DNA of 64,000 bases, taken from Planctomycetota bacterium. Lineage in GTDB: Bacteria; Planctomycetota; UBA1135. The stretch spans positions 186,001-250,000 of the forward strand of contig SHNF01000009.1 in assembly GCA_004295085.1 (NCBI GenBank). The letters run 5' to 3'. The notes beneath the pieces are model-generated. The model ran no database searches, was not told where the DNA came from, and was given only the letters and a program-made list of their open reading frames with translations. Made by a program: the position numbers and the translations under genes. Of this stretch, positions 10,289 through 31,484 are shown in pieces (the stretch's first letter is position 1; every line of letters starts with the position of its first letter).

Positions 10289-13200
10289 TCAGTCCCCGCT
10301 CGCGACCATGGCGTGCACAACGGGCCCGGGGCATGAGAACGTGTAGGTTCCGGAGTCGACGGCAAAGACCGCGGCGTCGGGTTCGGCGCGCAGGAAGCGG
10401 ACACCGCGGGCGCGGGCGGCCGCAACACCGCTCTCCATGACGCTGGCGGCGTCGGTGGTCGGGACGAAGACCGTCGCGGTCGTGTTCGGCGGGATGGTGA
10501 CGCCCAGGGTGAGGACGTCACCGTCGAGCCGCCATTCGGTCGCGATGCGGCCGCGGATGGAGTCGTAGCCGACCTTGGCCCAGGCCAGGCCGCCGCCGGG
10601 CCGGGGCCGGATCGCGATCTCGCGGAAGCCGGGGGCCGCCGGGCGGATGCCGCCGATGTTCTCGAACATCCATTGCGTGACCGCGCCGAAGGCGTAGTGC
10701 GCAAACGAGTTCATGCCGGGATCCTGGAACCCCTTCTCCGGAGTCCAGCCGTCCCAGCGCTCCCAGATGCTGGTGGCTCCGTTGCGGATGGTGAAGCCCC
10801 AGGAGGGGAAGGTCTCGTTGAGCAGCAGCCGGTAGGCCACGTCCATGCGCCCGATCTTCTCGAGCACCAGCATGAGGTCCTTGGTGCCGACGAAGCCGGT
10901 GGAGAGGTGCCAGCCGCGCTCGCGGATGCGCTCGACCAGGTGCGCCGCCGCCTGCGCGCGCCGTTCGCCATCCACGAGGTCGAAGGCCAGCGCCAGCACG
11001 TAGGCGCACTGCGTGTCGCCCTTGACGCGGCCGTCGGCGGCGACGTGGGCCCGGTTGAAGGCCTGCTTGATGCCTTCGTAGAGATTCCAGTAGCGCCTGG
11101 CGTCCTCGGCACGGCCCAGCTCCTCGGCGCCGCGCGCCATGAGGCGCGCGCAGCCGGCGAAGTACGCGGTGTAGATGACGTCGTGGGGCGTGTCGGCGTT
11201 GATCGCGACCCAGTCGCCGAAGCATTGGAACTGGGCGGGGGGCAGGAGGCCGACGCTGCGTCCCTCGCAGAAAGCGAGGAAGCGCGCCATGGAGTCGTAG
11301 TGGCGCGCGAGCAGGCGGCGGTCGCCGTAGACCTCGTACACGGCCCAGGGACAGATGACGCCGGCGTCGGCCCAGGCCGGCCCGCCGTCGTCGCCGGCCA
11401 CCTTCAGCGGGGCGACCATGGGGAACTGGCCGTCGGCGCGCTGGGCGTCCACCAGGTCCACCAGCCACTTGTCGTAGAAGGCCTGGGCGTCGGCGACGAA
11501 GGTGGCGGTGCGGATGTAGGCCTGGGCGTCGCCGGTCCAGCCGAGCCGCTCGTCGCGCTGCGGGCAGTCGGTGGGCACGTCGATGAAGTTGGCGCGCTGC
11601 GTCCACAGCGTGTTGCTGTACAGGCGGTTCAGCAGCGGGTTGGAAGTCTCGAAGCTGCCGGCGATGGGCGTGTCGCTGCTCAGCGCCACGCCGACCACGG
11701 TGTCCGGGCCGGGCTTGCGGCCCAGGCCGGAGACCTCGATGTACTGGAAGCCGTGGAAAGTGAAGCGCGGCTCCCATTCCTCCGCGCCGCCGCCCTGGCA
11801 GATGTAGGTGTCCGTGGCCCGGGCGCCGCGCAGGTTGGTCGTGTACAGCGTGCCGTCGGGGCTGAGGCGCTCGGCGTAGCGCAGCGTGATCTTCTGGCCG
11901 GGGGATCCCTGGACCTTGATCCGGGCCACGCCCGCGATGTTCTGGCCCAGGTCCAGCACGTAGGTGTCCGGCGCCACTTCCGTGACCGTGCGCGGCTCCA
12001 GCACCGCGACCGCGCGCACGGGATAGCCCGGATGCGGCGCGCAGGCCACCTGGATGCCGTCGAACTCCTGCGCCGGGTCCCAGGAGGTGATCGCGCGGCG
12101 CGCGTCGCAGGTCTCGCCCATCAGGAAGTCGGCTTCCAGCAAGGGGCCGGCCGCGGCCTGCCAGCTCGCGTCGGTGGCGACCACGGAGCGGCCGCCGTCC
12201 GCGTGCTCGATCACGAGCTGCGCGCGCAGGCGCGGCGAGCGGCCGTAGTGGTTGCGCTGCCCGCCGTAGCCCACGTAGCCCGCGTACCAGCCGTCGGCCA
12301 GGACCGCGCCCAGCGTGTTCGCGCCCTCCCGCAGCAGGTCGCTGACGTCGTAGGTGTTGTAGTACACGCGCTTCGTGTAGTCGGTCCACCCGGGCGTGAA
12401 GTAATCGTCCCCGACGCGCTCGCCGTTCACGTACATCTGGTACAGACCCAGGGCCGAGGCATACAGCGTGGCGCGCTTCACGTCCTGGTCCTGCCGGAAC
12501 TCCTTGCGCAGGAAGCGCGGCGGCGGCAGGAACAGCCCGGACTGGCCGATGCGGCCCCAGGGGCCGCCGCCGTGCTCGGCCACGATCCGCGCGGCCATCC
12601 AGCCGCGCTCGTCGAAGTCGGCGCTGGTCCAACCCTCCGCGACCTGATCGCTGCAGCGCCAGTCCGCGTCGGTCGCGAAGGACCAGCCGCCGCCCGCGCC
12701 GACCGTCAGCTTCGCGATGACCCCGGCCGGACTCGGCGCGGCATTCCGGGCGGCGATCGCGATCACGTTGTCGCCGGGATGCAGCAGCGCGGCCACCTCC
12801 ACGTCGCCGCCGTGGCGCCATCCGTCCAGCTCGTCCGCGTTCTCGTAGACCTTCTGGCCGTTGAGGAACACTTCGCAATGGTTGTCCACCGAGACGATCA
12901 GGCGCGCCGTTTCCGCAGGCTCCGGCACGCTGAAGCGGCCGCGGAACCAGCGCTCCGCCGCCGGCGCGTTCTGGGCGTCATCGCCCGGGAACCAGATCCA
13001 CTGCGCGCCGTCGAAGCCGGCGGCGTCGTCCTTGACCTGCAGCGGCACGTCGTAGCCGATCCAGCGCGCCTGCCAGTCCGACGGCTCGAGCAAGCCCATG
13101 GACCAGGCGGCGACTTCGCTCCATGCCGAGGCCTTGCCGTCCTGGTCCCATACGCGCACCTTCCAGCGCACCTGCTGGCCGGAGGTGAGCGGCGGTCCCG

Positions 13201-13483
13201 CGTACTCGATGTCCACCGTCGCGCTGGACGTCACCTTGCCGGTATCCCACAGCGGCGCGCCCTCCGAGACGGCCAGCACCTGATACGCGCTCTGGCTCAA
13301 GCCGCGGGCGGCGGGATCCGCCGCCTCCAGCCTCCAGTCCAGCCGCGGCGTGCGCGTCTCGATCCCCAGAGGCTCCACCAGGTGCTCGCAGCGCAGCTGC
13401 GTGGCGCGCAGGCTTCCATCCTGGGCAGGAGGGAGCGCCTGGCAGGCGCCGAGAAGCAGGAGCAGGACGGAGGGGGGCCGCAT
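10289..13483 (-). CDS. Alpha-L-rhamnosidase, GH78 lipoprotein
   Basis: It releases L-rhamnose from rhamnosides outside the cytoplasm. The 1064-residue protein starts with a lipoprotein signal (MRPPSVLLLLLGAC, lipobox LGAC). The domain order is typical of bacterial GH78: N-terminal fibronectin-like and beta-sandwich domains, the DUF4981/Bac_rhamnosid_N-type sandwich around 340-480, a catalytic (alpha/alpha)6 barrel, and a C-terminal beta domain. The signature DCPQRDERLGWTGD lies near residues 637-650 and holds catalytic acidic residues. It is separated from the rhamnose catabolic operon by the vapBC pair and has its own -10-like box. It would feed the importer and the catabolic enzymes of the same strand. 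Confidence 0.92.
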   Translation of the reverse strand: MRPPSVLLLLLGACQALPPAQDGSLRATQLRCEHLVEPLGIETRTPRLDWRLEAADPAARGLSQSAYQVLAVSEGAPLWDTGKVTSSATVDIEYAGPPLTSGQQVRWKVRVWDQDGKASAWSEVAAWSMGLLEPSDWQARWIGYDVPLQVKDDAAGFDGAQWIWFPGDDAQNAPAAERWFRGRFSVPEPAETARLIVSVDNHCEVFLNGQKVYENADELDGWRHGGDVEVAALLHPGDNVIAIAARNAAPSPAGVIAKLTVGAGGGWSFATDADWRCSDQVAEGWTSADFDERGWMAARIVAEHGGGPWGRIGQSGLFLPPPRFLRKEFRQDQDVKRATLYASALGLYQMYVNGERVGDDYFTPGWTDYTKRVYYNTYDVSDLLREGANTLGAVLADGWYAGYVGYGGQRNHYGRSPRLRAQLVIEHADGGRSVVATDASWQAAAGPLLEADFLMGETCDARRAITSWDPAQEFDGIQVACAPHPGYPVRAVAVLEPRTVTEVAPDTYVLDLGQNIAGVARIKVQGSPGQKITLRYAERLSPDGTLYTTNLRGARATDTYICQGGGAEEWEPRFTFHGFQYIEVSGLGRKPGPDTVVGVALSSDTPIAGSFETSNPLLNRLYSNTLWTQRANFIDVPTDCPQRDERLGWTGDAQAYIRTATFVADAQAFYDKWLVDLVDAQRADGQFPMVAPLKVAGDDGGPAWADAGVICPWAVYEVYGDRRLLARHYDSMARFLAFCEGRSVGLLPPAQFQCFGDWVAINADTPHDVIYTAYFAGCARLMARGAEELGRAEDARRYWNLYEGIKQAFNRAHVAADGRVKGDTQCAYVLALAFDLVDGERRAQAAAHLVERIRERGWHLSTGFVGTKDLMLVLEKIGRMDVAYRLLLNETFPSWGFTIRNGATSIWERWDGWTPEKGFQDPGMNSFAHYAFGAVTQWMFENIGGIRPAAPGFREIAIRPRPGGGLAWAKVGYDSIRGRIATEWRLDGDVLTLGVTIPPNTTATVFVPTTDAASVMESGVAAARARGVRFLRAEPDAAVFAVDSGTYTFSCPGPVVHAMVASGD

Positions 13484-13502: not shown

Positions 13503-13874
13503 TCATGCGGAAACGAATCGGACGCCTTTGCGACCCTTGAAGTCACGGTCCTGCGTCCACAGAGTCGCATCGAAGGCCCGCGCAGTCGCCAGGATCACGC
13601 TATCGGCAAGCGGCAGACGCTCCTGAACGCTCAAACGCGCTGCAGCAAGGGCAAGGGTCGAATCCAGATCGACGACCGTTCCCTGATGCATGAGAGCAAT
13701 AGCTTGCAGCGCAATGGCATCACCTCGCTGCTGCGAAACTCGCTTGAACACTTCGAACAGGCTCAAAGTCGGAACCATCAGCCTCGCAGTGTCTTCGATG
13801 GCTGGAGCAAAGAAGCTGGCGTTTCTGGCGTTGGCAAAGTATTCGAGCCAGCCGGATGAATCGACCACATTCAT
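13503..13874 (-). CDS. vapC: VapC-like PIN-domain toxin
   Basis: This 123-residue protein has the PIN-domain ribonuclease pattern: D5 in MNVVDSSGWLEYF, E41 in LFEVFKR, D91 in LPLADSVILATARAF, and D109 in LWTQDRDF. These four acidic residues coordinate the catalytic metal, and the VapC family cleaves tRNA or rRNA. It overlaps the antitoxin gene upstream by ATGA. The stretch is visibly less GC-biased than its neighbours and sits between rhamnosidase and rhamnulokinase, consistent with acquisition by transfer. Confidence 0.9.
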   Translation of the reverse strand: MNVVDSSGWLEYFANARNASFFAPAIEDTARLMVPTLSLFEVFKRVSQQRGDAIALQAIALMHQGTVVDLDSTLALAAARLSVQERLPLADSVILATARAFDATLWTQDRDFKGRKGVRFVSA

Positions 13875-14077
13875 ACACGGTCCGCTTCCCGATCTACTGT
13901 CGTATCGATCCCCCGCAAGAATCCCCGCATCCGCCTTAGGCGGCGCACCGGAATGAGTTCGATGCGGTCGTCGTAGACGATGGCCTGTACCTTCTGCCCT
14001 GGGCGCAGGCGCAGCAGCTCCCGGACCGCCTTGGGGATTACGATCTGGTACTTCGGCGAGATGGTGACGGTCTCCAT
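13871..14077 (-). CDS. vapB: VapB-like AbrB/SpoVT-fold antitoxin
   Basis: This 68-residue protein begins with the swapped-hairpin AbrB DNA-binding fold (VTISPKYQIVIPKAVRELLRLRPGQKV), followed by a short tail likely to bind the toxin. It should bind its own promoter and neutralise VapC. It is the first gene of the pair, is translationally coupled to vapC, and is served by a perfect sigma-70 promoter. Confidence 0.9.
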   Translation of the reverse strand: METVTISPKYQIVIPKAVRELLRLRPGQKVQAIVYDDRIELIPVRRLRRMRGFLRGIDTTVDREADRV

Positions 14078-14184: not shown

Positions 14185-15606
14185 CTAGCACCTCATTCCT
14201 GCACATGGACGGAAGCTGCGCAACTGGAACGCGCGCGCGACGAAGCTGCGGGCGGACGCGGGATCGGGAAGGGCGCCGTCGGCGACGGCCTGCACCAGGA
14301 GATTGCCGATGGCCGCCGCCTCCACCGGACCGGCGCGCACCGGCAGGCCGCAGGCGTCGGCCGTCGCCTGGTTCAGGAAGTCGTTCTGGCTGCCGCCGCC
14401 GACGATGTGGATGCCCTGGATGGTGCGTCCCGTGAGCGCTTCCAACTTGCGCACGACCTCGGCGTAACGGCGCGCCAGCGATTCCAGGATCGCCTTGGCG
14501 ACCTCCAGAGGGTCCTCCACAGGTTTCTGACAAGTCTCCCTGAAATAGCCAAGCACCGCCTCCAGCATGTCCGGCGGGTTCAGGAAGCGCGGATCGTCCG
14601 GATCGATGAAAAGCGCGCCGGGAGGCGCCCCCGCGAGGCGCGCCGAGATCTCGTCGTGGGGCAGGCGGACTCCGCGCTGCTCCCAGGCCTTGCGGCAGCC
14701 TTCCAGGATCCACAGCCCCATCACGTTCTTGAGGAAGCGCGTCGTGCGGAACGCGCCGGCTTCATTGGTGAAGTTGGCTGCGAGCGCCTCCGCCGTGAGG
14801 ACGGGCGCGGGCAGCTCCAAGCCGACCATGGACCAGGTGCCGGAGGAGATGTACGCCCAACCGTCCTCGAGCGGCGTTCCGATCACGGCGCTGGCGGTGT
14901 CGTGCGTCGCCGGCGCGATGACACGGACATCCGGAAGGCCGAGTCTGCGCTGCAGCAGGGGGTCGAGCGCACCCAGGTCGGTCCCCGGCGATACCAGCGG
15001 CGGCATCACGTCGGCCGGGACGCCGACGGCTTCCAGGAGCTGCGGATCCCAGCGGCGAGTGCCGGCATTCAGGAGTTGCGTCGTGCTGGCGTTCGTTTCC
15101 TCTCCCGACTCGGAATCGCAAAGCCGATTGTGCACCAGGTCGGGAATCATGAGAAGGCGCCGGGCCTCCTGTGGCCACTCCTTGCTTTGCATCTGTGCGC
15201 AAAGCTGCACGGACGTGTTGATCGGCATGAACTGGATGCCGGTGCGCGCATAGATGTCGTTCCTGGGCGCGCGCTGGAGCAGCGCATCGAGGATTCCTGC
15301 CGTGCGTCCGTCGCGGTAGGAAACCGGATCCTCCAGGAGCTCACCGTCCTCGTCCAGCAGGCCGTAGTCCACGCCCCACCCGTCCACGCCGATACTGCGC
15401 GGCGGCGCGCCGGAGGCCGCGCGCAGGCCCGCGCACACGCCGCGCCACAGCGCCTCGAAGTCCCAGCGCTCGTGGCCGGCGCTGACGCGCGGGCCGTAGT
15501 GGAAGCGGTGCAGGATCCCGAGCTCGAGCCCGTCGTCGTGGAAACGGCCCAGGACCACGCGCCCGCTGCCGGCGCCCAGGTCCACGGCTGCGTAAGCGCG
15601 CTGCAT
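14185..15606 (-). CDS. rhaB: Rhamnulokinase
   Basis: It phosphorylates L-rhamnulose to L-rhamnulose-1-phosphate with ATP. The 473-residue protein is a FGGY-type kinase. The N-terminal phosphate-binding loop VDLGAGSGRVVLGRF, IGVDGWGVDYGLLD with the catalytic aspartate near residue 77, ATHDTASAVIGTP near 251, and the C-terminal IHIVGGGSQNDFLNQATAD are all characteristic of RhaB. The gene follows the isomerase gene by 7 bp, is the last of the catabolic run, and precedes the inserted vapBC pair. Confidence 0.93.
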   Translation of the reverse strand: MQRAYAAVDLGAGSGRVVLGRFHDDGLELGILHRFHYGPRVSAGHERWDFEALWRGVCAGLRAASGAPPRSIGVDGWGVDYGLLDEDGELLEDPVSYRDGRTAGILDALLQRAPRNDIYARTGIQFMPINTSVQLCAQMQSKEWPQEARRLLMIPDLVHNRLCDSESGEETNASTTQLLNAGTRRWDPQLLEAVGVPADVMPPLVSPGTDLGALDPLLQRRLGLPDVRVIAPATHDTASAVIGTPLEDGWAYISSGTWSMVGLELPAPVLTAEALAANFTNEAGAFRTTRFLKNVMGLWILEGCRKAWEQRGVRLPHDEISARLAGAPPGALFIDPDDPRFLNPPDMLEAVLGYFRETCQKPVEDPLEVAKAILESLARRYAEVVRKLEALTGRTIQGIHIVGGGSQNDFLNQATADACGLPVRAGPVEAAAIGNLLVQAVADGALPDPASARSFVARAFQLRSFRPCAGMRC

Positions 15607-15613
15607 GCGCCGG

Positions 15614-16909
15614 CTAGACGATCCCGGAGCCGCCGCGGCGCGCCTGCGGCCGCTCCGCGTCCTTGCGCGCGCGGTAGCCGCTGGCGCGGAAGCAGCCGAC
15701 CGGATCGATGGCGCCGCCGGCGCGCCGCCGCGCCTCGGCCAGGAGCGGCGCGACGTCGGTGGTGAACGCCTCCTTGAGGCTGCGGTGCGCCATGAGCGCG
15801 TCGTTGGCCTCCTGATGGCGCCGCAGCGCCGCGCGATCCACCAGCAGCGCCTGCACGTGGGCCCGCTGCAGCTCCATGGCGCTGGCCATGAGCGACTCCA
15901 GCGGATCGGTGACGTTGTGCGACTGGTCGAGCATGTAGGCCGGATGGAAGGCCGAATCGCGCTGCGCGGCGTCCACCAGCTCGTGGAAGATCAGGAACAA
16001 TTGGAAGGGGTGGATGGAGCCGCTGTCCAGGTCGTCGTCGCCGTACTTGCTGTCGTTGAAGTGGAAGCCGCCCAGCTTCCCGAACTGGATCAGGCGCGAC
16101 ACGATCATCTCGATGTTGGTGTTGGGCGCGTGATGGCCCAGGTCCACCAGGCACAGCGCCTGCGGCCCGAGCTCGCGCGCGCACCAGTAGCTGGTGCCCC
16201 AGTCGTTGAGGACGGTGGCGTAGAAGGCCGGCTCGTACAGCTTGTGCTCCAGGAAGAGCCGCCAGTCCGCCGGCAGCGCCGCGTAGATGCGGCGCGCACT
16301 GTCCAGGTAGCGCTCCAGCGCGTCGCGGAAGTTGTGCTGACCCGGGAGGTTGGCGCCGTCGCCAATCCAGAGCGTGAGCGCCTTGCTGCCCAGCCGCCGG
16401 CCGATGTCGATGCAGCGCAGGTTGTGCTCGATGGCCTGGCGGCGCACCGCCGGATCTGTGTGGGTGAGGCTGCCGTGCTTGTAGGAGTGTGCTTGACCGG
16501 CCTGGTCCTGGAACGTATTCGAGTTCATCGCGTCGAAGCCGAGCCCGCGCTCCCGCGCGTATTCCGCCAGCTCCGCCGCGTCCTCCGGCGCGTCCCAGGG
16601 GATGTGCAGCGAGACCGTGGGCGTGCAGCGCACCAGCGCGTGCACCGTGGCGCAGTCGTCCAGCTTCTCGAGGACGTCGCGCGGCTCGCCCGGCCCCGGG
16701 AAGCGGGCGAAGCGCGTGCCGCCGGTGCCGACGCCCCAGGACGGGACCGCCACCGCGAAGCCGGAGGCCAGGCGCAGCAGCTCCTCCGCGTCCACGCCGC
16801 GGCGCGCCAGCCGCTCTGCGAGCTGGCGGAAGTCCGGTTCCACGGCGCGCTGCACGGCACGGTTGTGCTGCTCGACGAAGTCCGGAGCGATCCGGAAGGC
16901 GCCGCTCAT
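15614..16909 (-). CDS. rhaI: L-rhamnose isomerase, RhaI type
   Basis: It interconverts L-rhamnose and L-rhamnulose. The 431-residue TIM-barrel protein resembles the Pseudomonas stutzeri/Gram-positive RhaI class rather than Escherichia coli RhaA. Likely metal ligands are the glutamate in FLEHKLYEPAFY, the Asp and His in LVDLGHHAPNTNIEM, and the aspartates in FHFNDSKYGDDDLDSG. ATG 16909 is chosen because it overlaps the preceding stop as ATGA. The frame remains open far upstream, but that part is antisense to the neighbouring gene. Confidence 0.92.
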   Translation of the reverse strand: MSGAFRIAPDFVEQHNRAVQRAVEPDFRQLAERLARRGVDAEELLRLASGFAVAVPSWGVGTGGTRFARFPGPGEPRDVLEKLDDCATVHALVRCTPTVSLHIPWDAPEDAAELAEYARERGLGFDAMNSNTFQDQAGQAHSYKHGSLTHTDPAVRRQAIEHNLRCIDIGRRLGSKALTLWIGDGANLPGQHNFRDALERYLDSARRIYAALPADWRLFLEHKLYEPAFYATVLNDWGTSYWCARELGPQALCLVDLGHHAPNTNIEMIVSRLIQFGKLGGFHFNDSKYGDDDLDSGSIHPFQLFLIFHELVDAAQRDSAFHPAYMLDQSHNVTDPLESLMASAMELQRAHVQALLVDRAALRRHQEANDALMAHRSLKEAFTTDVAPLLAEARRRAGGAIDPVGCFRASGYRARKDAERPQARRGGSGIV

Positions 16910-18990
16910 CGCGGAAACGCAGTCAGGTTGCCCGCGTCCACGTTCAGGATGTTGCCTGTGGACTTGGCCGACAGGTCGGAGGCGAAGAAATACACGGCTT
17001 CGGCGACGTCCTCCGGGTACACGCTCCGCTTCAGCAGGCTGCGCTCGCGGTAGTGGCGCTCGAGGTCCTGCTCCTCGACGCCGTAGGCCTGCGCCCGCTC
17101 CTTGCGCCAGGCGCCGCTCCAGATGCGCGAGCCGCGCAGCACCGCGTCCGGGTTCACGACGTTGCAGCGGATGCCGGCCTCGGCGCCCTCCAGCGCCAGG
17201 CAGCGCGCCAGGTGCAGCTCCGCGGCCTTGGCGCTGTTGTACGCGGCCGCCTGCGTGGAGGCGGCCAGCGCGTTCTTGGAGCCGACGAACACGATGGAGC
17301 CGCCGAGTCCCTGGCGCTTCATCAGCTTGAACGCCTCGCGCGACACCAGGAAATAGCCCTGGACCAGGATGTCCATGTTGCGCTGCCACAGCTCGACGCT
17401 CGTGTCCTCGAACGGCGCCGAGGAAGCGATGCCGGCGTTCGACACCAGGACGTCCAGGCCTCCGAAGTGCAGCGCGCAGGACTCGACCGCGGCCGCGACC
17501 TCCGCCTCCCGCGTGACGTCGGCCGTGACGCCGCGCACGTTGTCGGCGCCGAAGCGCGTGTCCAGCTCCGCGTGCGCGGACTCGAGCGCCTGCGCGTCGA
17601 TGTCGCACAGCACCACGCATGCTCCTTCCGCGAGCAGCCGCGCCGCGACCGCGCGCCCGATCCCGCCGCCCCCGCCGGTCACCAGCGCCACCCGGCCGGC
17701 CAGGCTCTTCGGCGGCGGCATGCGCTGCAGCTTGGCTTCCTCCAGCGGCCAATACTCGATGCCGAAGGCTTCGCGCTCGTCCAGTCCGGCGTAATCGCTC
17801 ACGGCGGTGGCGCCGCGCATCACGCGGATCGCGTTGACGTAGAACTCGGCCGCCACGCGCGCCGTCGCCTTGTCCCTGGCGAAGGTCAGCATGCCGGCGC
17901 CGGGGACCAGGATGACCACGGGGTTCGGGTCGCGCAGCGGCGGCGAATCCGGCCGCTTGCAGCGCTCGTAGTACGCGGCGTAGTCGCGGCAGTAGCCTTC
18001 CACCCGCTCCTTCACGTCGCCCGCGTCCGCGGGCACCACGAGCGGGCGGATCTTGGTGCGCAGGAAGTGGTCGGGGCAGGACGTGCCCTTGGCCGCCAGT
18101 TCCTCCAGCCGCTTCGAGCCCACGAACTCGAGCACGTCCGGCGCGTCCGTGAAATGCCCGATCTTGCGGCGCTCGCGCCCGACCGCTCCGCGCAGCAGCG
18201 GCAGGAGGCGCAGGACGATCTCCTGGCGCCGCTCCGCGTCCAGGGTCTCCGCCACGGCGCCGCCGAACGCCGGCCCGCGCGCCCTCTCCGCCAGGTACCC
18301 GGTCGCGCGCCGGATCACGCGCAGCGTGTTCTCGTAGCACTCCTTCGAGGTCTCGCCCCAGGTGAACAGGCCGTGGCCGCCGAGCACGATGCCACGCAGC
18401 TCCGGCCGGGCCCGGCACGCCGCCTCCAGCTTCAGCGCCAGGTCGAAGCCCGGCCGCTGCCACGGAAGCCAGCCCAGCTCTCCGCCCCAGATCTCGCGCG
18501 TCAGCCGCTCGCCGTCCCGCGACGCCGCGACGGCGATGACGTCGTCCGGATGCATGTGGTCCACGTGCCGGTGCGGGATGAAGGCGTGCAGCGGCGTGTC
18601 GATGCTGGCCGGGCGCGGATTCAGGTTGAAGGTGCAGTGGCCGAGCAGCGGCACCATCGCGTCCTCGTGCTCGAGCCCGCGGTACAGCTCCTTCAAAGAC
18701 ACGAGCTTGCCCAGGTACAGCGTGGCGAAGCCGTCGAGCTGCATGGAGCCGAGGTCGCCGCCCGAACCCTTCACCCACAGCACCGTCACGGTCGCGCCGG
18801 TCAGCGGATCGCGGTCCGGGATCTTGGCCGAGGTGTTCCCGCCCGCGAAATTGGTCACCCGCAGGTCGCTGCCCAGCAGCTGGGACCGGTACAGCAGCAA
18901 CTGCGCTTCCGTGAATCCGTGCGCGACGCTCTCGTCCCAACGGGACGCTACCTCGGCAGGCTCCGCCGTGCCGGTCTTCATCGGGCGCAT
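16906..18990 (-). CDS. Bifunctional rhamnulose-1-phosphate aldolase/lactaldehyde dehydrogenase
   Basis: The N-terminal part (about 1-400) is a class II aldolase domain with zinc-ligand histidines in PHRHVDHMHPDD and GGHGLFTWGET. It would split rhamnulose-1-phosphate to dihydroxyacetone phosphate and L-lactaldehyde. The C-terminal part is a short-chain dehydrogenase with the nucleotide loop VTGGGGGIGRAV and the catalytic YNSAK, oxidising lactaldehyde to lactate. This is the RhaEW/YuxG arrangement. I chose ATG 18990 because the preceding 24 codons of the longer frame (ATG 19062, 13 bp after the previous gene) show no family similarity; ATG 18981 is also possible. Confidence 0.9.
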   Translation of the reverse strand: MRPMKTGTAEPAEVASRWDESVAHGFTEAQLLLYRSQLLGSDLRVTNFAGGNTSAKIPDRDPLTGATVTVLWVKGSGGDLGSMQLDGFATLYLGKLVSLKELYRGLEHEDAMVPLLGHCTFNLNPRPASIDTPLHAFIPHRHVDHMHPDDVIAVAASRDGERLTREIWGGELGWLPWQRPGFDLALKLEAACRARPELRGIVLGGHGLFTWGETSKECYENTLRVIRRATGYLAERARGPAFGGAVAETLDAERRQEIVLRLLPLLRGAVGRERRKIGHFTDAPDVLEFVGSKRLEELAAKGTSCPDHFLRTKIRPLVVPADAGDVKERVEGYCRDYAAYYERCKRPDSPPLRDPNPVVILVPGAGMLTFARDKATARVAAEFYVNAIRVMRGATAVSDYAGLDEREAFGIEYWPLEEAKLQRMPPPKSLAGRVALVTGGGGGIGRAVAARLLAEGACVVLCDIDAQALESAHAELDTRFGADNVRGVTADVTREAEVAAAVESCALHFGGLDVLVSNAGIASSAPFEDTSVELWQRNMDILVQGYFLVSREAFKLMKRQGLGGSIVFVGSKNALAASTQAAAYNSAKAAELHLARCLALEGAEAGIRCNVVNPDAVLRGSRIWSGAWRKERAQAYGVEEQDLERHYRERSLLKRSVYPEDVAEAVYFFASDLSAKSTGNILNVDAGNLTAFPR

Positions 18991-19074
18991 CGTAGCCTGT
19001 CCCTCGGACCGTGGTGGTTGGGTGCCGGAATGGACGCCAACCTCCAGGGAACCGGCGGACATGCCTCCGCCAGC

Positions 19075-20982
19075 CTAGAAGTCGAACTGGTCGATGTTGG
19101 ACGCGTCGAAGCGGAACGGGGCGCCGAGCAGCACGTCGGCGCCGCGCACTTCGATGCTGCCCAGGCGACCGGCCGCAAGCGCCGTGGAGCCGGCCCTCAG
19201 CCGCCCGTCGTGCAGCGCCACGGCCGCCTGCACGGTGAGATAGCCGAGGTCCACGGTGTTCCACAGGATGATGCTGTCGATGATGCCCGCGTGCACGTAG
19301 GAGCGGCACAGGCTCGGCACCGAGAGGCCGATGACCTTGACCTCGCTGCCTTCCTGCTTCACGGCCTCGGCCGAGCCGGGCACGGCCGCGGCGGCGATGG
19401 TCATGATCAGGCGCACCTCGGGGTAGGCGCGCAGGATGTTGCGGGTCTCGGTCAGCGCGCGGTCGCGCAGGCCGTCGCTGGGCCGGATCACGGCGATCCG
19501 CAGGTCCGACCAGCGCTCGGCCAGGCGCGCGCGGATGTGCTCGATCCAGGCGTTCTGGTTGGCGGCGGTGAGCGAGGCGGTGACGATCGCGAAGCTGCCC
19601 GCGCCGCCGAGCACGCGCCCGGCCTCGTCCGCCAGCGCGTGGCCGATGCCTTCCGGCGTGGCCTGGTTTATGAAGAAGTCGCGCGCGTCGGGCTCCGCGT
19701 CCGCGTCCCAGGTCAGGACCGGGATGCCGCGCTCGCGCGCCTTCCGCAGCACCGTGCTGATCGCGGGCGCGTTCTCCACGCTCACCGCGATGACGTCCAC
19801 GCCGCGCGTGATCCAGCCTTCGACGATCTCGTTCTGGCGGGCCGCGTCGGTGTCGTTGGGGCCGTCCCAGAGCAGCTCGACGCCCAGCTCGCCGGCCGCG
19901 GCCTCGGCCCCCGCGCGGCATGACACGAAGTAGGGATCGCTCTTGTTCTTCGGCATGAGGGCGACGAGCGGCTGTCCGGACCCGGCGCCGCCGTCCCGGC
20001 TCCAGGCCAGGAAGGCGAGGCCGCCGAGCACCGCGGCCGGAACGAGGACCCGGGCGCCGGCCAGGCGCGGCTTCGCGCGCCCCTCCAGCAGCACCGCGCC
20101 GACCAGCAGCACGCCGAGCAGGATGGAGGCGAGCTCGGTCGGCTGCCCGGAGAGCAGCAGGCCGTTCTGCAGCACGGCGATCGTGAGCAGGCTCAGCAGC
20201 GTGCCCGGCACGGTGCCACGCCCGCCGGAGATCGGTGTGCCTCCGAGGGCGACGATCGTGACCGCGAGCAGCTCGTAGCCGGTCCCTGCGTCGGCCTTTG
20301 CCTGCCCGAGGTGCGAGACGTACAGGATCCCGGCGAGCGCCGCCGCCGCGCCCGAGATCGCGTACACGCCGAGCAGGCAGCGGCGCACCGGCACGCCGGC
20401 GTAGCGCGCCCCTTCCACGGAGAAGCCGATGGCGACCAGCCGGCGTCCGAAGGGCGCGCGGTGCAGCAGCAGCCAGCCGGCGGCCGCGGCGGCGGCCAGG
20501 ACCAGGAGCTGCGGCGGCAGGAAGCCGAACCAGTAGCCCTGGCCGAATTGCAGAAAAGAGGGCGCAAAGCCGGAATAGACCGCATAGCCGCCGGTCCAGG
20601 CCTCCGCAACTCCGCGCGCGAGCGCCATGGTGGCGAGCGTCACCACGAGCGGCGGCACCTGCGCCAGCGCGATCAGGACACCGTTGCAGAGGCCGACCAG
20701 CGCCCCGAAGACCAGCGCGGCGGCGCACGCGAGAAGAAGCGGCACACCGTGCGCGTGCAGGTCGCCGAGCAAGACGGCCGTGAGGCCCATCACCGCGCCC
20801 ACCGAGAGATCGATGCCGCCCGCCGTCATGACGAGCGTCATGCCGAGCGCGAGCAGGCCGAGCTCGGCCGTGGCACGCCCGATCTCCAGGCCGTTCTGCA
20901 GGCTCAGGAAGCTGTCCGCGAGCAGCGCGAACAGCGCGATCTCCAGCAGGAGCAGCAGCGGGAGCACGCGGCGCTCAGGCAC
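19075..20982 (-). CDS. Rhamnose ABC importer: permease fused to sugar-binding protein
   Basis: Residues 1-305 form a CUT2-family permease with about nine hydrophobic helices, GGIDLSVGAVMGLTAVLLGD near 55, and the ATPase-contact loop ALGGTPISGGRGTVPGTL at 246-263. A further hydrophobic helix (311-327) is followed by a complete type I periplasmic binding domain (337-635). That domain opens with LVALMPKNKSDPYFVSCRAGA and contains NDTDAARQNEIVEGWI and DVIAVSVENA, as in the rhamnose-binding protein RhaS. The last helix would thus tether the receptor outside the membrane. GTG 20982 overlaps the stop of the other permease gene by 8 bp. No stop or frameshift separates the two halves. Confidence 0.88.
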   Translation of the reverse strand: MPERRVLPLLLLLEIALFALLADSFLSLQNGLEIGRATAELGLLALGMTLVMTAGGIDLSVGAVMGLTAVLLGDLHAHGVPLLLACAAALVFGALVGLCNGVLIALAQVPPLVVTLATMALARGVAEAWTGGYAVYSGFAPSFLQFGQGYWFGFLPPQLLVLAAAAAAGWLLLHRAPFGRRLVAIGFSVEGARYAGVPVRRCLLGVYAISGAAAALAGILYVSHLGQAKADAGTGYELLAVTIVALGGTPISGGRGTVPGTLLSLLTIAVLQNGLLLSGQPTELASILLGVLLVGAVLLEGRAKPRLAGARVLVPAAVLGGLAFLAWSRDGGAGSGQPLVALMPKNKSDPYFVSCRAGAEAAAGELGVELLWDGPNDTDAARQNEIVEGWITRGVDVIAVSVENAPAISTVLRKARERGIPVLTWDADAEPDARDFFINQATPEGIGHALADEAGRVLGGAGSFAIVTASLTAANQNAWIEHIRARLAERWSDLRIAVIRPSDGLRDRALTETRNILRAYPEVRLIMTIAAAAVPGSAEAVKQEGSEVKVIGLSVPSLCRSYVHAGIIDSIILWNTVDLGYLTVQAAVALHDGRLRAGSTALAAGRLGSIEVRGADVLLGAPFRFDASNIDQFDF

Positions 20983-21916
20983 GGGCTCCGCTCCTCCGCG
21001 CCCACAGCAGCGAATCCAGCGTCACCGCCGCCAGGATGATCCCGCCCTGGATCGCCCGCTCCCAGGCCGCGTCCACGCGCAGGAACACCAGCATCGTGCC
21101 GATCACGCTCAGCAGCGCCACGCCGAGCAGCGTCCCGACCAGGCTGCCGCGCCCACCCTGGATCGAGACGCCTCCCACGATGACGCAGGCGATCACCTTC
21201 AGCTCGAATCCGATCCCGGCCTCGATCTCGACGGCCGGGTAGCGCGGGAAGCTCAACAGCGCCGCCGCCGCCACGAAGGCCCCCATGGCGACGAAGACCC
21301 CGAACACGACGCCTTCCGGCCGTATGCCGGCCAGCCGCGCCGCCTCCGCGTCGCCGCCGGTCGCGAGCACGGCCCGGCCCCAGCTCGTCCAGCGCAGGAA
21401 CAGCAGCGCGAGCAGGAACAGCAACGCCGCGGCGGCCATGAACACGGCCTGACCCGCGTCCTGGGACAGTCCGAACCAGGGGAAGGAGGGCGGCAGGTCG
21501 GCCACCCACGCGCCGCCGCTGAGCCAGCGCAGCGTTCCGCGCAGCACGGCCATGCCGGCCAGCGTCGCGATGATGGCCGGCACGCGCAGGCGTGCCACCA
21601 GCAGGCCGTTCAGCGCGCCGATGGCGCCGCCGGCGGCCAGGGTGACCGGAATGAACAGAACGGGCGGCAGCCCGGCCCTGGCGAGCAGGCCCATGAGCAC
21701 CCCGCAGACCGCGAACTGCGCTCCGACGGAGATGTCGATCTGTCCCGCCAGCATCAGGAAGGTCATCCCGACCGAGGCGACCAGCAGCGGCAGCGTGTCG
21801 ACCAGCCAGTTGCGCAGGTTGGCGGCGTCGTAGAACTCCGGCGCGGCGATCGCGACCGCCCCCGCCAGCAAGGCCAGCACGACCCCCAGCGCGGCTTCGC
21901 GGCGCCAGCGCTCCAT
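20975..21916 (-). CDS. rhaP: Rhamnose ABC importer permease
   Basis: This 313-residue CUT2-family permease (PF02653) is the second membrane subunit of the sugar importer. Segments FLMLAGQIDISVGAQFAVCG near residue 53 and VIVGGVSIQGGRGSLVGTLLGV near 238 match the permease signature. About nine hydrophobic helices are visible. Its ATG shares one base with the ATPase stop (TGATG), so translation is coupled. It would pair with the permease half of the downstream fusion protein. Confidence 0.9.
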   Translation of the reverse strand: MERWRREAALGVVLALLAGAVAIAAPEFYDAANLRNWLVDTLPLLVASVGMTFLMLAGQIDISVGAQFAVCGVLMGLLARAGLPPVLFIPVTLAAGGAIGALNGLLVARLRVPAIIATLAGMAVLRGTLRWLSGGAWVADLPPSFPWFGLSQDAGQAVFMAAAALLFLLALLFLRWTSWGRAVLATGGDAEAARLAGIRPEGVVFGVFVAMGAFVAAAALLSFPRYPAVEIEAGIGFELKVIACVIVGGVSIQGGRGSLVGTLLGVALLSVIGTMLVFLRVDAAWERAIQGGIILAAVTLDSLLWARRSGARA

Positions 21917-23478
21917 CAAGCTGCTCCCTCGAGACCCAATGCCAGCGACATCACCGCTTCCTGGCTCGCGCCCGCCCGCGGCAGCGCGCCGGCCACGCGC
22001 CCGCGCCGCAGCACCACGATGCGGTCGGACAGCTCCAGCAGCTCGGGCAGGTCGGAAGAGATCAACAGCACCGCGCAGCCCTTGGCAGCCGCCTCCAGGA
22101 TCAGTCCGTGGATCTCCTGCCTTCCGCCCACGTCGATCCCCTGGGTCGGCTCGTCCAACACGAGCACGCGCGGCTCGCAGGCCAGCCAGCGCGCCAGCGC
22201 CACCTTCTGCTGATTGCCGCCCGAAAGCGCTGCAACCTCGGTCTGTGGCGACGGCACCTTGATGCGGAGCCGCTCGATCCAGCGGCGAGCGAAGGCCAAC
22301 TCTCCTTCGCGATCCAGCAGCCCGCGCCGCGTGTGCGCCTCCAGCCGCGGCAGCGTCAGGTTCTCGCTGACGTCGAGCGCCGGCAGCACGCCGTGCCGCC
22401 GCCGGTCCTCCGGCACGCAGGCGATCCCGCAGGCCAGCGCATCCTTCGGTGACCGCGGCTTGATCACGCCACCACCCACGCGCACTTCCCCGCCCTGGAA
22501 CGGCGCCAGGCCGACCAGGCAGCGCGCCAGCTCGGTGCGGCCCGCCCCGACCAGCCCGCCAAGCCCCACGATCTCGCCCGCGCGCACCTGCAGCGAGATG
22601 TCGTGCAGCCCAGCCTCCCGTGACGTCAATCCCGCCACCTCGAGCAGGACCGGCCCCGCAGCTCCTGCCCCGCGCGCCTGCGGCTCCGCCAGCTCGCGCC
22701 CCACCATGTGCGCCACCAGCGCCGGGCGCGTCAGCTCCGCCATCGGCGCGCTCCAGACCAGCCGGCCGTCGCGTAGCACACTGACCCGGTCGGCGATCCG
22801 CTCCACTTCCTCCAGCCGATGCGAGATGTACAGGATGCCCGCGCCGCGCTCGCGCAGGCGCAACAGAATCTGCAGCAGGCGCTCGGACTCGGTGCGCGCG
22901 AGCACCGCCGTCGGTTCGTCCAGGATCAGGATGGGCGCCTCGCTGCGCAGCGCCCGCGCGATCTCCACCAGTTGCTGCTGCGCCGGCGCCAGCTCGCGCA
23001 CCAGCGCGCCCGGATCCACGCCGGCCTCCACCCGCGCCAGCAACTCGGCGGCGCGCCGGCGCCGCGCCCGCCAGTCCAGCAGAGGCCCGTCGCTGCCGAT
23101 CAGCAGGTTCTCCGCCACGGTCAGCTCGCCGAACAGTGCGGGCTGCTGGTAGATCACAGCGACGCCCAGCTCCCGCGCCCGCCGCGGCGAGTGCGACTCC
23201 ACGCGCCGCCCCTGGATCTCCAGGGTCCCCGCGTCCGGCGCGTGGGCGCCGGTGATGACCTTGATCAGCGTGCTCTTGCCGGCCCCGTTCTCCCCCACCA
23301 GCGCGTGCACCTCGCCCGGCCGCAGGTCCAGGGACACGTCGCGCAGGGCCGCCACGGCGCCAAACGACTTGGAGATCCCTCGCAGGCACAAGAGCGTGCG
23401 AGCCTCCCGCCCGTGGAGGGGAGCGTCCACGCCGGCATTCTGCAACTCCCGGCCGGGCGACGCGAGGACCCGTCGCAA
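21916..23478 (-). CDS. rhaT: Rhamnose ABC importer ATPase, two cassettes
   Basis: This protein of up to 520 residues contains two ABC domains. The first has Walker A GENGAGKST near residue 63, signature LAPAQQQLVEIARAL, and Walker B ILILDEPTAVL. The second has a degenerate Walker A (GGLVGAGRTE), signature LSGGNQQKVALAR and Walker B VLVLDEPTQGIDVG, as is normal for CUT2 ATPases. The start is uncertain: TTG 23478 is the longest frame, GTG 23430 lies within the poorly conserved leader, and TTG 23391 follows a good GGGAGG motif and would give MCLRGISKSFG. It is the first gene of the rhamnose operon and divergent from the porin gene. Confidence 0.88.
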   Translation of the reverse strand: MRRVLASPGRELQNAGVDAPLHGREARTLLCLRGISKSFGAVAALRDVSLDLRPGEVHALVGENGAGKSTLIKVITGAHAPDAGTLEIQGRRVESHSPRRARELGVAVIYQQPALFGELTVAENLLIGSDGPLLDWRARRRRAAELLARVEAGVDPGALVRELAPAQQQLVEIARALRSEAPILILDEPTAVLARTESERLLQILLRLRERGAGILYISHRLEEVERIADRVSVLRDGRLVWSAPMAELTRPALVAHMVGRELAEPQARGAGAAGPVLLEVAGLTSREAGLHDISLQVRAGEIVGLGGLVGAGRTELARCLVGLAPFQGGEVRVGGGVIKPRSPKDALACGIACVPEDRRRHGVLPALDVSENLTLPRLEAHTRRGLLDREGELAFARRWIERLRIKVPSPQTEVAALSGGNQQKVALARWLACEPRVLVLDEPTQGIDVGGRQEIHGLILEAAAKGCAVLLISSDLPELLELSDRIVVLRRGRVAGALPRAGASQEAVMSLALGLEGAA

Positions 23479-23601: not shown

Positions 23602-23627
23602 CAACCTCACGCAAGGTGCGAAGCAGG

Positions 23628-23687
23628 TTGACAAGCCGTGTTGACAAGCCGTGTTGACAAGCCGTGTTGACAAGCCGTGTTGACAAG
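23628..23687. repeat. 13-bp tandem repeat TTGACAAGCCGTG, 4.6 copies
   Basis: Four exact units of TTGACAAGCCGTG (23628-23679) are followed by a partial unit TTGACAAG (23680-23687). The array ends just before GGAGAAGGAGAG and the porin start. Each unit contains the consensus -35 hexamer TTGACA and a GTGTTG pair in a new reading frame, since 13 is not a multiple of three. Perfect identity suggests recent expansion by slippage. Confidence 0.9.
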
Positions 23688-23706
23688 GAGAAGGAGAGAG
23701 CAGGAA

Positions 23707-24882
23707 ATGCGAACGCCTCGCGGTGGTTTCACGTCGCGGATCGTCGGGGCCTTGATCCTCGCGAGCCCGAGTCTCGCGGCCCAGCAGACCGGCCAAGATC
23801 AGCAGGCCGGAGCAGAGGTCGAGCCCACGCCCAAGGGCATCCAGTGGACGACGGGCGACTACAAGTGGAAGATCGGGGGCTACATCAAGGTCGATGTGAT
23901 CCACGACTTCGACGAGATCGGCTCGACCGACTTCTTCGACGTGCGCACGATCCCGACGGCGGGCGCGAACGAGCCGGGCGACAGCACGCGCATTCACGCG
24001 CGCCAGACGCGCCTGAACCTTGATGTCACCGGCCCGACCTCGGCGGGCGCCTTCCGGGCCTTCTTCGAGGGCGACTTCTTCAGCGACCAGAACGGCTTCC
24101 GCATGCGCCACGCCTACGGCACGGTCGGTCACGTGCTCGGCGGGCAGACCTGGTCCACGTTCATGGACGAGAACGCGATGCCCGAGACGCTCGACTTCGA
24201 GTCGCCGGTCGCGTTCCCGCTCATCCGCCAGGCGCAAGTCCGCTGGACGCAAGAGCTGGAGAATGGGAACTACTTCGCCGTCTCGCTCGAGGACCCCGAC
24301 TCCGACGTGATCCCGGCCGCCGGCCTTACGGGCGAGACCGACGAGCCTCTCCCCGACTTGAACGCGCGCGTACACCTGAAGAACCCGCTCGGTCACGTCC
24401 AGCTCGGCCTGTTCAGCGGCATGGCGCGCTTCGACCCCGGCACGGGCTCGACCAACGACGCCTGGCTGTGGGGCGCGAACCTCTCGACCAAGCTCACCAC
24501 GTGGGGCTCCGACAACGCCATCGCGCAGATCACCTACGGCGAGGGCGTCGCGCGCTACCGCGGCGGCAACACGGCCGCGTACGACGCGAACGGCAACCTC
24601 GACGCGATCCCAACGCTCGGAATCCTCGGCTCATATCAGCACTACTGGGCGGAAGACTTTCGCAGCTCGGTCGGCTACAGCTGGGGCGACGGCGACGTCC
24701 CCAGCGGCGCGCCGCCGGCCACCACCACCGAGCAGCTCCAGTACGGCTTCGCCAACCTCATCTGGCAGTTCGCCGACCGGGCCTGGGTCGGCATCGAGTA
24801 CCTCTACGGCGAACGCCAGACGTTTGACAACGCGGACGGCACCGCGCACCGCATCCAGATCTCCCTGCGCTTCGACATCTGA
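23707..24882 (+). CDS. DcaP-like outer-membrane porin
   Basis: This 391-residue protein has a Sec signal (hydrophobic stretch IVGALILASPSLA, cleavage near AAQQ) and ends in phenylalanine-rich beta strands (IQISLRFDI), typical of outer-membrane barrels. GDYKWKIGGYIKVDVIHDFDEIG, the RQTRLNLDVTGPTSAG strand and GHVLGGQTWSTFMDENAMPETLDFE resemble the trimeric DcaP family, which passes dicarboxylates and other small anions. GGAGAAGGAGAG lies upstream of ATG 23707. A GTG in the last repeat unit (23677) is in frame but would place charged residues before the signal. It may bring substrates to the decarboxylase/antiporter genes downstream. Confidence 0.8.
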   Translation: MRTPRGGFTSRIVGALILASPSLAAQQTGQDQQAGAEVEPTPKGIQWTTGDYKWKIGGYIKVDVIHDFDEIGSTDFFDVRTIPTAGANEPGDSTRIHARQTRLNLDVTGPTSAGAFRAFFEGDFFSDQNGFRMRHAYGTVGHVLGGQTWSTFMDENAMPETLDFESPVAFPLIRQAQVRWTQELENGNYFAVSLEDPDSDVIPAAGLTGETDEPLPDLNARVHLKNPLGHVQLGLFSGMARFDPGTGSTNDAWLWGANLSTKLTTWGSDNAIAQITYGEGVARYRGGNTAAYDANGNLDAIPTLGILGSYQHYWAEDFRSSVGYSWGDGDVPSGAPPATTTEQLQYGFANLIWQFADRAWVGIEYLYGERQTFDNADGTAHRIQISLRFDI

Positions 24883-24958: not shown

Positions 24959-27811
24959 ATGAAGCCCGTTCCTCACAAGACCACGCCGCGCTCCGCGACC
25001 ATGGCCACGAACCCCGAAGCCGCCGCTGACCTCGACCACTTCTTCTCCGTGATCGCCGCGCGCCTGGATCGCTGGCGCGAGCTCGGCAAGGCCGCGCAGG
25101 CCTGGGCCGCACAGGGCGCCGGGAAGGCGGGCGCGGCCTCGAAGGCGGAGTGCGCGCGGCAGCTCGAGCAGCTCACGCCCTTCGAGTCGCTGCAGGCCTT
25201 TCCCGGTCTGCGCCTGCTGCAGGCGCTCGAAGAGCGCGTGAGCTCGGGCGACGCGCACGCGGCCGCGCGGCTGGTGCAGCGCGTGTCCAGCGCGCTCATG
25301 TCGCGCAGCTATCGCGGCGAGAGCGGCGACCTCGAGCCGGAGGAGGACGGGGGGGCGGGCGAGCGCGCCCTGCCCACCGCCCCGCGCGAGGCGGCGGCGC
25401 GGCCGTACTTCGAGGTGCTCTTCGTCTCGCCGGCGCCGCTGTCGCGCCGGCAGGCGCAGGTGCAGCAGGTGCGCAAGCTGCGCCGGCCGCAGGACGAGTT
25501 CATCTACGAGCCGGTGTTCGTGGGCAGCTTCGAGGACGCGGTCCTGGGCGTGATCGTGAACACGAACCTGGAGGCGGTCGTGATCTACGACGGCTTCCCG
25601 TACGAGTCCGTGTTCGACGTGCCGCTCTTCAAGAGCTGGCTCTCCTCGCGCCTCCCGGCCTCCATCACGGCGAGCGCGGGCGCCGACCTCGGGCTGCTGC
25701 TCGCGCGCGCAGTGCAGGCGATCCGGCCGGAGCTCGACGTGTACCTCCTGGCCGATCGCAAGCCGGACGAGATCGTCTCGGACCCCGCCGCGGCCGGCCT
25801 GCGGCGCGTGTTCTACGCGGTCGAGGAGCCGCTCGAGATCCACCTCTCGATCCTGGCCGGCGTGGCCGACCGCTGCCGCACGCCCTACTTCGACAACCTC
25901 AAGAAGTACGCGCAGAAGCCGGTCGGCACCTTCCACGCGCTGCCCATCGCGCGCGGCAAGTCGATCTTCCGCTCGAACTGGATCCGTGACATGGGCGAGT
26001 TCTACGGCCCCACCCTGTTCCTGGCCGAATCCTCGGCCACGACCGGCGGCCTGGACAGCCTGCTCGAGCCCACCGGCAACATCAAGCTGGCCCAGGACGC
26101 GGCGGCGCGCGCGTTCGGCGCCGACCACGTCTACTTCGTGACGAACGGCACCTCGACCTCGAACAAGATGGTGCACCAGGCGCTGCTCGAGCCAGGCGAC
26201 ATCGTCATCGCCGACCGCAACTGCCACAAGTCGCACCACTACGGCATGGTGCTCGCGGGCGCGCAGCCCTACTACGTCGAGGCCTTCCCGCTGGTCGCGT
26301 ACTCGATGTACGGCGCCGTGCCGGTGCGCGCGATCAAGCAGGCGCTGCTCGACCTCAAGGCGGCCAAGCGCCTCGGCAAGGTGAAGCTGGTCACGCTCAC
26401 CAACTGCACCTTCGACGGCCACGTGTACGACACGCGCCGGGTGATGGAGGAGTGCCTGGCGATCAAGCCCGACCTGGTCTTCCTGTGGGACGAGGCCTGG
26501 TTCGGCTTCGCGCGCTTCTCGCCCTTCTACCGCCCGCGCACGGCCATGGGCGCGCGCGCCGCGCTGAAGGAGGCCTTTGCCGATCCCGAGTACCTGAAGC
26601 GCTACCAGGCCCAGGAGAAGCAGCTCGGCGCCGACCTCGACCCCAAGGACAAGCGCGTGCTCGACACGCGCCTGATCCCCGACCCGCGCAAGGCCAAGCT
26701 GCGCGTGTACCAGACCAACTCGACCCACAAGTCGATGTCGGCGCTGCGCCAGGGCTCGATGGTCCTGGTCGGCGACGAGGAGTTCGCGAAGCAGGAGCAG
26801 GCCTTCAAGGAGGCGGTGTTCACGCACGCCTCGACCTCCCCCAACCTGCAGATCATCGCCTCGCTGGACGTCGCGCGGCGCCAGATGGAGCTCGAGGGCT
26901 ACGAGCTGGTGATGGCCGCGGTCCAGAACGCGCTCGAGATCCGGCGCGCGGTGAACCACCACCCGCTCGTGTCCAGGTACTTCCGCGTGCTGGAGCCGGA
27001 GGAGATGATCCCGGCCGGATTCCGGCCCTCGGGCTTCGCGAGCTTCACCGAGGGCGGCGGCTCCTGGGTCGACGCGCTCAAAGCCTTCCGCGAGGACGAG
27101 TTCGTGCTCGATCCCACGCGCCTGACGCTCGTGTGCGGCACGGCAGGCTTCGACGGCACGCAGTTCAAGAACTTCCTGGCGGCCGAGTATGAAATCCAGC
27201 TCAACAAGACCTCGCGTAACTCGGTCCTCTTGCAGACCAACATCAACAACACCCGCAGCGACGTCGCCAACCTGCTCAAGGTCCTGGTCGAGATCTCCAA
27301 GGGGATCGAGGAGCGCCTGAAGAGCGGCGGCGAGCCCGCGCGCGCGGCCTTCGCGGCGCGCGTGAAGGCGCTGATGGAGGACGTGCCCGACCTGCCGAAC
27401 TTCAGCCGCTTCCACGACCGCTTCCGCGACGACCCGAAGGGCAGGACGCTGGAGGGCGACATGCGCGCGGCGTTCTACGTCGCCTACGACTCCGAGCGCT
27501 GCGAGCATGTCAAGCTGATGAGCCCCGAGATCGACCAGCGCCTGAAGTCCGGTCCGCCGCTCGTCTCGGCGCACTTCGTGATCCCCTACCCGCCGGGCTT
27601 CCCGATCATGGTGCCCGGCCAGGTGATCGCCGCCGACACGATCGAGTTCATGCGCAAGCTCGACGTGAAGGAGATCCACGGCTACGACGCCAGCCTGGGG
27701 TTGAAGCTGATCCGGCCCGCGGTGCTGGGCAAGAGCGGCGGCAAGTCGCGCGCCGCCGTGCCCGGCCACCGGGCGCCCGTACCCGTTTCCCGAAGGAGGT
27801 CACGGTCATGA
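24959..27811 (+). CDS. Orn/Lys/Arg-type PLP-dependent decarboxylase, long form
   Basis: It should decarboxylate a basic or related amino acid, consuming a cytoplasmic proton. Fold-type I motifs are intact: [19 protein letters not shown] with D419, FLWDEAWFG with D511 for the pyridine nitrogen, and [14 protein letters not shown] with the Schiff-base lysine at about 591. The 950-residue length exceeds the usual 710-760. Part of the excess is an N-terminal helical region (1-150) before the receiver-like wing domain, and there is a basic C-terminal tail. Substrate cannot be read from sequence. The stop overlaps the antiporter start (ATGA), so the two products are made together. ATG 25001 ([12 protein letters not shown]) is an alternative start. 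Confidence 0.85.
27793..27800 (+). promoter_or_regulatory. Consensus Shine-Dalgarno AAGGAGGT before aspT
   Basis: AAGGAGGT lies 7 nt before the antiporter ATG, inside the 3' end of the decarboxylase gene. It is a full anti-16S match and fixes the start at 27808. Confidence 0.85.
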
Positions 27812-31426: not shown

Positions 31427-31484
31427 CCATGGCCACACCCGAATCTACCCTCAAGGACCCCTCCAACACTCACGAGATGAAACC

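Follow-up and report, generated by a model that had tools for sequence, protein, structure and literature searches.

A gene that joins a CUT2-type sugar permease to its sugar-binding receptor, found in the 64,000-nucleotide stretch of DNA analysed here (hereafter the window), is a true fusion and a derived member of a large family that has received little notice. The family represents a new form of receptor-translocator fusion, and its surprising part is a predicted internal start at the junction between the two domains. This family, found mainly in the Acidobacteriota and Planctomycetota, probably supplies its transporters with both a tethered and a free, membrane-anchored receptor by means of a selected internal start, and several of its lineages, that of the window among them, appear to have turned independently to the tethered form only. 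The fusion of the window is quite likely part of a rhamnose ABC importer that keeps a single receptor tethered next to its pore; it would be descended from a gene with a two-form receptor, and would now be made as the fusion only.

The fusion gene of the window and its operon

The fusion gene is located on the minus strand, a point left unstated in the preliminary description, and runs from position 20982 down to 19075; it starts with a GTG codon and encodes 635 amino acids without an internal stop. The plus-strand reading of 19075-20982 contains a stop and shows no likeness to permease or receptor domains, and was hence rejected. The permease part (residues 1-305; 20068..20982) carries a BPD_transp_2 domain (PF02653) at residues 39-296 that scores 143.8 bits against a Pfam cut-off of 26.8, and the receptor part (residues 339-635 and the stop codon; 19075..19968) carries a Peripla_BP_4 domain (PF13407) at residues 340-593 with 186 bits against a cut-off of 35.1. 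An AlphaFold2 model built on a 60-row alignment (mean pLDDT 89.8; pTM 0.81) exhibits the permease helices, a further predicted transmembrane helix at residues 310-328 (19999..20055), and a receptor that begins with a strand at residue 339; helix and receptor are connected by a short tether (residues 329-338; 19969..19998) of 10 residues by hydropathy. Confidence in this model is lowest at the junction (pLDDT 52-69 per ten-residue block over residues 301-340). Open frame, Pfam matches and model bear out the original reading of a permease-receptor fusion in one 635-residue frame, and the domain borders proposed at that time (extra helix 311-327, receptor 337-635) match those of the model. As a single chain that holds both a receptor and a membrane domain, the protein is a receptor-translocator fusion; it is not a member of the OpuA or GlnP families, as the sole Pfam families matched were PF02653, PF13407 and PF00532. 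Foldseek aligned the model best with 4kvf, a rhamnose-binding protein (TM 0.89 on the target), followed by 5bq3, which is also rhamnose-binding, and LsrB, while the permease half, when searched by sequence against solved structures, gave no match.

Upstream of the fusion gene, and overlapping its start by 8 bases, lies the gene for a second CUT2 permease (permease-1; 20975..21916, minus strand; PF02653, 129.4 bits, cut-off 26.8), the likely pore partner, which is indeed a separate, unfused gene as had been claimed. It is accompanied by a gene on the same strand (21916..23478) for a sugar-importer-type double ATPase, with two ABC_tran (PF00005) stretches and an AraG/XylG likeness in NCBIfam that stays below the cut-offs. 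The window thus holds the PF02653 permeases, the PF13407 receptor and the double ATPase of a CUT2-type sugar ABC importer in one operon. Downstream of the fusion, likewise on the minus strand, follow genes for a bifunctional rhamnulose-1-phosphate aldolase/short-chain dehydrogenase (16906..19062; TIGR02632, 1009.5 bits, cut-off 567.75), an L-rhamnose isomerase (15614..16900; TIGR02629, 680.5 bits, cut-off 646.75), a rhamnulokinase-like kinase (14185..15606; TIGR02627, 454.5 bits, below the cut-off of 527.95), and an alpha-L-rhamnosidase (10289..13483; PF17389, 394 bits, plus another four rhamnosidase domains). These neighbouring rhamnose-catabolism genes confirm the rhamnose context described previously. 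RhaS is the best NCBIfam match of the receptor, which nevertheless misses the RhaS equivalog cut-off (TIGR02637; 226.5 versus 342.25 bits), and it is consequently only from the operon that we infer rhamnose as the substrate of the importer. Among 81 related loci, whose flanking DNA is often short, just 15 contain a rhamnose enzyme with at least 40% identity in that DNA.

Several other features of this region were recorded. A toxin-antitoxin-like pair (13503-14077, minus strand), consisting of a PIN-domain protein (PF01850) and a MazE-like antitoxin (PF04014), is placed between the kinase and rhamnosidase genes, and a very long antisense frame on the plus strand (16489-19923; 1144 amino acids) lies opposite the operon, presumably as a mere product of the high G+C content. 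Divergent from the importer operon is a gene for a DcaP-like outer-membrane porin (23677-24882; PF19577); between the two lies a perfect tandem repeat (23627-23687) with 4.7 copies of a 13-base unit, perhaps the binding site of a regulator. Positions 24959-33176 on the plus strand encode, in a row, an Orn/Lys/Arg-decarboxylase-like enzyme, an Asp-Al_Ex exchanger, a Na_sulph_symp transporter, and an aminotransferase-fold enzyme, and this cluster looks like one for amino-acid decarboxylation and exchange.

Distribution of the permease-receptor fusion

The preliminary description presented the fusion as an exception. The fusion is real, but its architecture is widespread: in a protein search with 6484 hits among 7993 candidates scored, both domains were found in one chain in all 120 matches listed. 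Twelve of these 120 proteins are 974-1023 amino acids long, and the database proteins P0002, P0004, P0058 and P0076, when examined, proved to be permease-permease-receptor triple fusions in which the sequence [M/V][K/R]NSQ, discussed below, is still present at the second junction. The AlphaFold2 model of P0002 (pLDDT 85.1; pTM 0.82) shows the permease helices twice, together with a long extra helix and the receptor. Triple fusions are known from database proteins only; apparent cases in the genome loci L075, L094 and L113 were rejected, as permease-1, although contained in the overlong open frame there, is read in a different frame.

When species genomes were scanned, 80 of 130 relatives were kept; these were mostly Acidobacteriota, along with some Planctomycetota and Gemmatimonadetes. 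Permease and receptor form a single open frame in 83 of 83 loci (the 80 relatives plus L001, L005 and L006), and the fusion protein's own cluster comprises 2 sequences on 12 contigs; a local frameshift or an assembly error, proposed earlier as grounds on which the fusion might be refuted, is thereby excluded. Most examples stem from metagenome assemblies, which would suit an artefact, but the fusion is also encoded by the genomes of the isolates Terriglobus roseus, Edaphobacter modestus, Granulicella sp. and KBS 146, and we regard the probability of an artefactual origin as negligible. In 64 loci with at least 3.5 kb of upstream DNA, a strict count gives the ATPase in 61 and permease-1 in 60; three of the four loci apparently missing permease-1 (L075, L094, L113) do carry it inside the overlong frame.

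Samples of phyla and of the window's order were queried with the receptor half only. In the Acidobacteriota, the phylum of Terriglobus, the receptor was matched in 24 of 396 genomes, and 21 of these 24 loci carry the whole permease in frame. Of the remaining three, L130 is cut by a contig end with the permease tail in frame, L128 is unfused, and L124 has a permease disrupted by a frame-changing deletion, so that only the permease end is in frame with the receptor, and keeps a GTG codon and a Shine-Dalgarno sequence at the junction; it is either a natural case or an assembly fault. Within the window's own phylum, 11 of 392 genomes matched; the receptors of the window and L139 are fused, and those of L140-L148 are separate. 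Inspection of the latter by eye revealed a lipobox-like cysteine in L141, L142, L144, L146 and L147, and a cleavable-looking signal in L143, L145 and L148. All three matches among the 154 genomes of the window's order are fused. This is also the order of G040, the genome behind the Planctomycetota locus L091, within which locus L006 of the same genome is contained. As L128 and L140-L148 show, members of the wider family can also do without the fusion.

The candidate internal start at the domain junction

The receptor half of most fused relatives begins with [M/V][K/R]NSQ, followed by a hydrophobic helix and then by SN..LVRSL. For the analysis of this junction, 120 rows were reduced to 107 by the removal of 13 duplicates, 97 of them fused or with a fused permease end and 10 separate; L006, a copy of L091, and L112, which lacks the receptor end and has a visible junction ATG, were set aside. 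A search for x[KR]Nx[QH] plus a hydrophobic stretch, with x unconstrained, found the motif in 69 of the 97 fused non-redundant loci, and the codon at position x was GTG in 47, ATG in 22, and no other in any of the 69. An earlier, looser motif search had given 5 odd codons among 68, in loci without [KR]Nx[QH]; the stricter search gives none. Among 66 alignment columns with at least 20 valines, the junction column is the only one with GTG throughout (47 of 47, 100%); the next best reaches 75%, and the median is 41%. On the tree, ATG and GTG were exchanged at the junction at least 8 times. The Acidobacteriota sample taken by itself gives the same picture, with the motif in 12 of 24 loci, a start codon in 12 of 12, and a Shine-Dalgarno sequence in 11 of 12.

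A Shine-Dalgarno 4-mer is present at positions -17 to -5 of the junction start in 57 of the 69 loci and absent in 12, compared with 96 of the 1965 (5%) remaining in-frame ATG/GTG codons of these genes, and with 19 of 95 among those that follow at least two acidic residues; the mean duplex energy is -7.48 at the junction versus -2.86 in the controls and -3.84 in the acid-matched controls. The five residues before the start vary (58 distinct strings in 69 loci), and the Shine-Dalgarno core falls in two reading frames, in 37 and 21 loci, respectively. Glutamate at positions -5 and -4 before the start is encoded by GAG 61 times and GAA 19 times, while elsewhere the two codons are used 761 and 763 times. 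Segments of 50 nt centred on the start have a mean folding value of -7.6 at 51% GC, against -11.3 to -18.0 at 59-70% GC in 16 neighbouring segments; once the effect of GC has been removed by regression, the start retains a residual of +2.2, a value that the segment at -30 shows as well. No such dip in folding was found in 26 start-less fused loci. Since the loci are related and p-values overstate their independence, we place weight on the pattern and not on p-values. Junction codon, Shine-Dalgarno sequence and weak folding are, as far as sequences can tell, features characteristic of a selected start codon.

A purine-rich stretch directly precedes the membrane helix in every motif-bearing gene, and one might therefore suppose that it merely slows the ribosome for the insertion of the extra helix, with no initiation taking place. 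Such pausing requires neither an ATG or GTG next to it, as found in 69 of 69 loci, nor weakly folded mRNA, and the start-less forms possess the helix without the purine-rich stretch; we consider this explanation rather improbable. A somewhat better, still small, chance can be given to the idea that the start is a fossil, in which case a receptor gene that was once separate would have become fused to the permease when a stop codon was lost, leaving its old start and ribosome-binding site unused. The motif does resemble the beginning of a stand-alone anchored receptor, and L140 and L151 encode an anchor-like receptor as a separate gene, with two other open reading frames between the receptor and its permease (L151, 7031-12358). 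L140 demonstrates that an anchor-like receptor can be encoded separately as a free protein, an arrangement that may be either ancestral or derived (tree support 88). A fossil, however, would not be expected to keep switching between ATG and GTG without ever becoming another codon, nor to keep its Shine-Dalgarno sequence, choice of glutamate codons and weak folding across both Acidobacteriota and Planctomycetota; in the start-less lineages, motif, Shine-Dalgarno sequence and weak folding are missing together.

The reading that we prefer, a start in use, has to be seen together with the state of the frame in front of it. From the end of the permease to the internal start, the linker measures 16 to 57 codons, with 26 different lengths in the 69 loci, and its 1826 codons contain no stop where 59.6 would be expected from base composition; these counts are approximate, since a motif was used to define where the permease ends. 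Fused frame and internal start thus both appear to be maintained, and this is best explained by two products: the start-bearing genes are predicted to yield the tethered fusion together with a free receptor, for which the same helix would serve as N-terminal anchor.

Probable loss of the start, proposed function and known systems

In most relatives, the counterpart of the window's extra helix opens with the internal start codon, which is absent in the window. No in-frame ATG, GTG or TTG codon with a Shine-Dalgarno sequence was found near the extra helix of the window gene, and its junction mRNA is strongly folded (-18 to -31); lacking the internal start, this gene is predicted to provide the receptor as a fusion only. 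A receptor tree was calculated from 152 sequences (114 with the start, 28 start-less, 10 unfused), in which database rows were labelled by the protein motif, P0032 was labelled start-bearing by hand, and L124 was counted as a fused start row, here and in the tether set, despite its lack of the motif. The window is the sole start-less row in a clade of 40 rows (SH-aLRT 100), the other 39 of which keep the start, as does the row most similar to it, P0003 (80% identity). The start-less label changes 7 times on the tree, at least 3 of these changes being forced by well-supported branches, and the start was therefore likely lost several times, including, to judge from these comparisons, in the lineage of the window. 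The fusion genes of the isolates named above (Terriglobus, Edaphobacter, Granulicella and KBS 146) are start-less as well. Given that start and ribosome-binding site sit exactly at the junction in most relatives examined, the window gene likely descends from a two-form gene. The stretch between helix and receptor has a median of 13.5 residues in start-less forms (7-22, n=28) and 24.5 in start-bearing ones (13-42, n=114), a difference that is not significant by a sign test with just 3 well-supported independent pairs; a shorter reach might suffice for a receptor that does not act in trans.

The receptor might instead be released from the fusion after translation, with the extra helix acting as a cleaved signal. 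An A-W-S stretch just past the helix in the window, which we presume signal peptidase might accept, speaks for this; yet the SN..LVRSL sequence conserved at that place in the relatives offers no typical cleavage site by eye, and with a cysteine near the helix end in only 1 of 96 fused loci, a lipoprotein-type cut is unlikely. We regard such processing as very unlikely overall.

For the tethered receptor that we favour, the following picture can be drawn. The permease would end in the cytoplasm, so that the extra helix would cross the membrane and place the receptor in the periplasm, where it would stand on its short tether. Permease-1 and the fusion would pair as a heterodimer to form the pore, which would give one receptor per pore; the receptor would close on the sugar and hand it to the pore, with transport being driven by the double ATPase. 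The earlier proposal of one tethered receptor per transporter can thus be retained as a prediction for start-less forms such as that of the window, but not for most relatives examined, in which the internal start would add untethered receptors, anchored by the same helix and serving transporters in trans, and receptors would consequently outnumber transporters.

Receptor tethering versus an excess of free receptors is an old question that has been studied mostly in OpuA and GlnPQ. One family now seems to offer a natural comparison: some of its members would obtain both forms from one gene, others the tethered form only, and L128 and L140-L148 encode the receptor separately. If one junction codon were exchanged for a synonymous one, the free form should disappear without any alteration of the fusion protein, and the question of tethered versus free receptors can in this way be put directly to the test. 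Our data also suggest that genome annotation may overlook a second product in many genes of the fusion family.

A literature search, covering mostly the top open-access results, found neither a CUT2 permease-receptor fusion nor an internal start within such a gene. In the rhamnose ABC importer known from Rhizobium leguminosarum, RhaSTPQ (RhaFGHJ), receptor and permeases are encoded by separate genes (PMC3870299), in keeping with the earlier statement that rhamnose importers normally employ a separate receptor and permease. As in the window, its rhamnose operon provides a receptor, a double ATPase and two permeases; in the window, by contrast, one permease is continuous with the receptor, whose score does not reach the RhaS cut-off. 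Binding-protein-dependent importers with a receptor fused to a membrane subunit are also found among the TRAP transporters, where such fusions are mentioned as rare (PMC8276074); these are secondary transporters with membrane subunits unrelated to those of the window.

Internal starts with a comparable outcome are known from a type I-B CRISPR system, in which Cas11b is produced separately from the downstream portion of a longer gene (PMC11899642), and from enterobacteria, in which paired N-terminal forms, arcB among them, are reported (PMC11005335). Those internal starts are experimentally shown, whereas ours are predicted, and the second product here would be a membrane-anchored transport receptor. 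In the well-studied OpuA and GlnPQ, as in the fusion of the window, a receptor domain is covalently joined to a membrane subunit. They belong to other importer families (for glycine betaine and amino acids) and have two receptor domains, OpuA being described as homodimeric (PMC8199443), whereas the partner permease in the window is a different, unfused protein.
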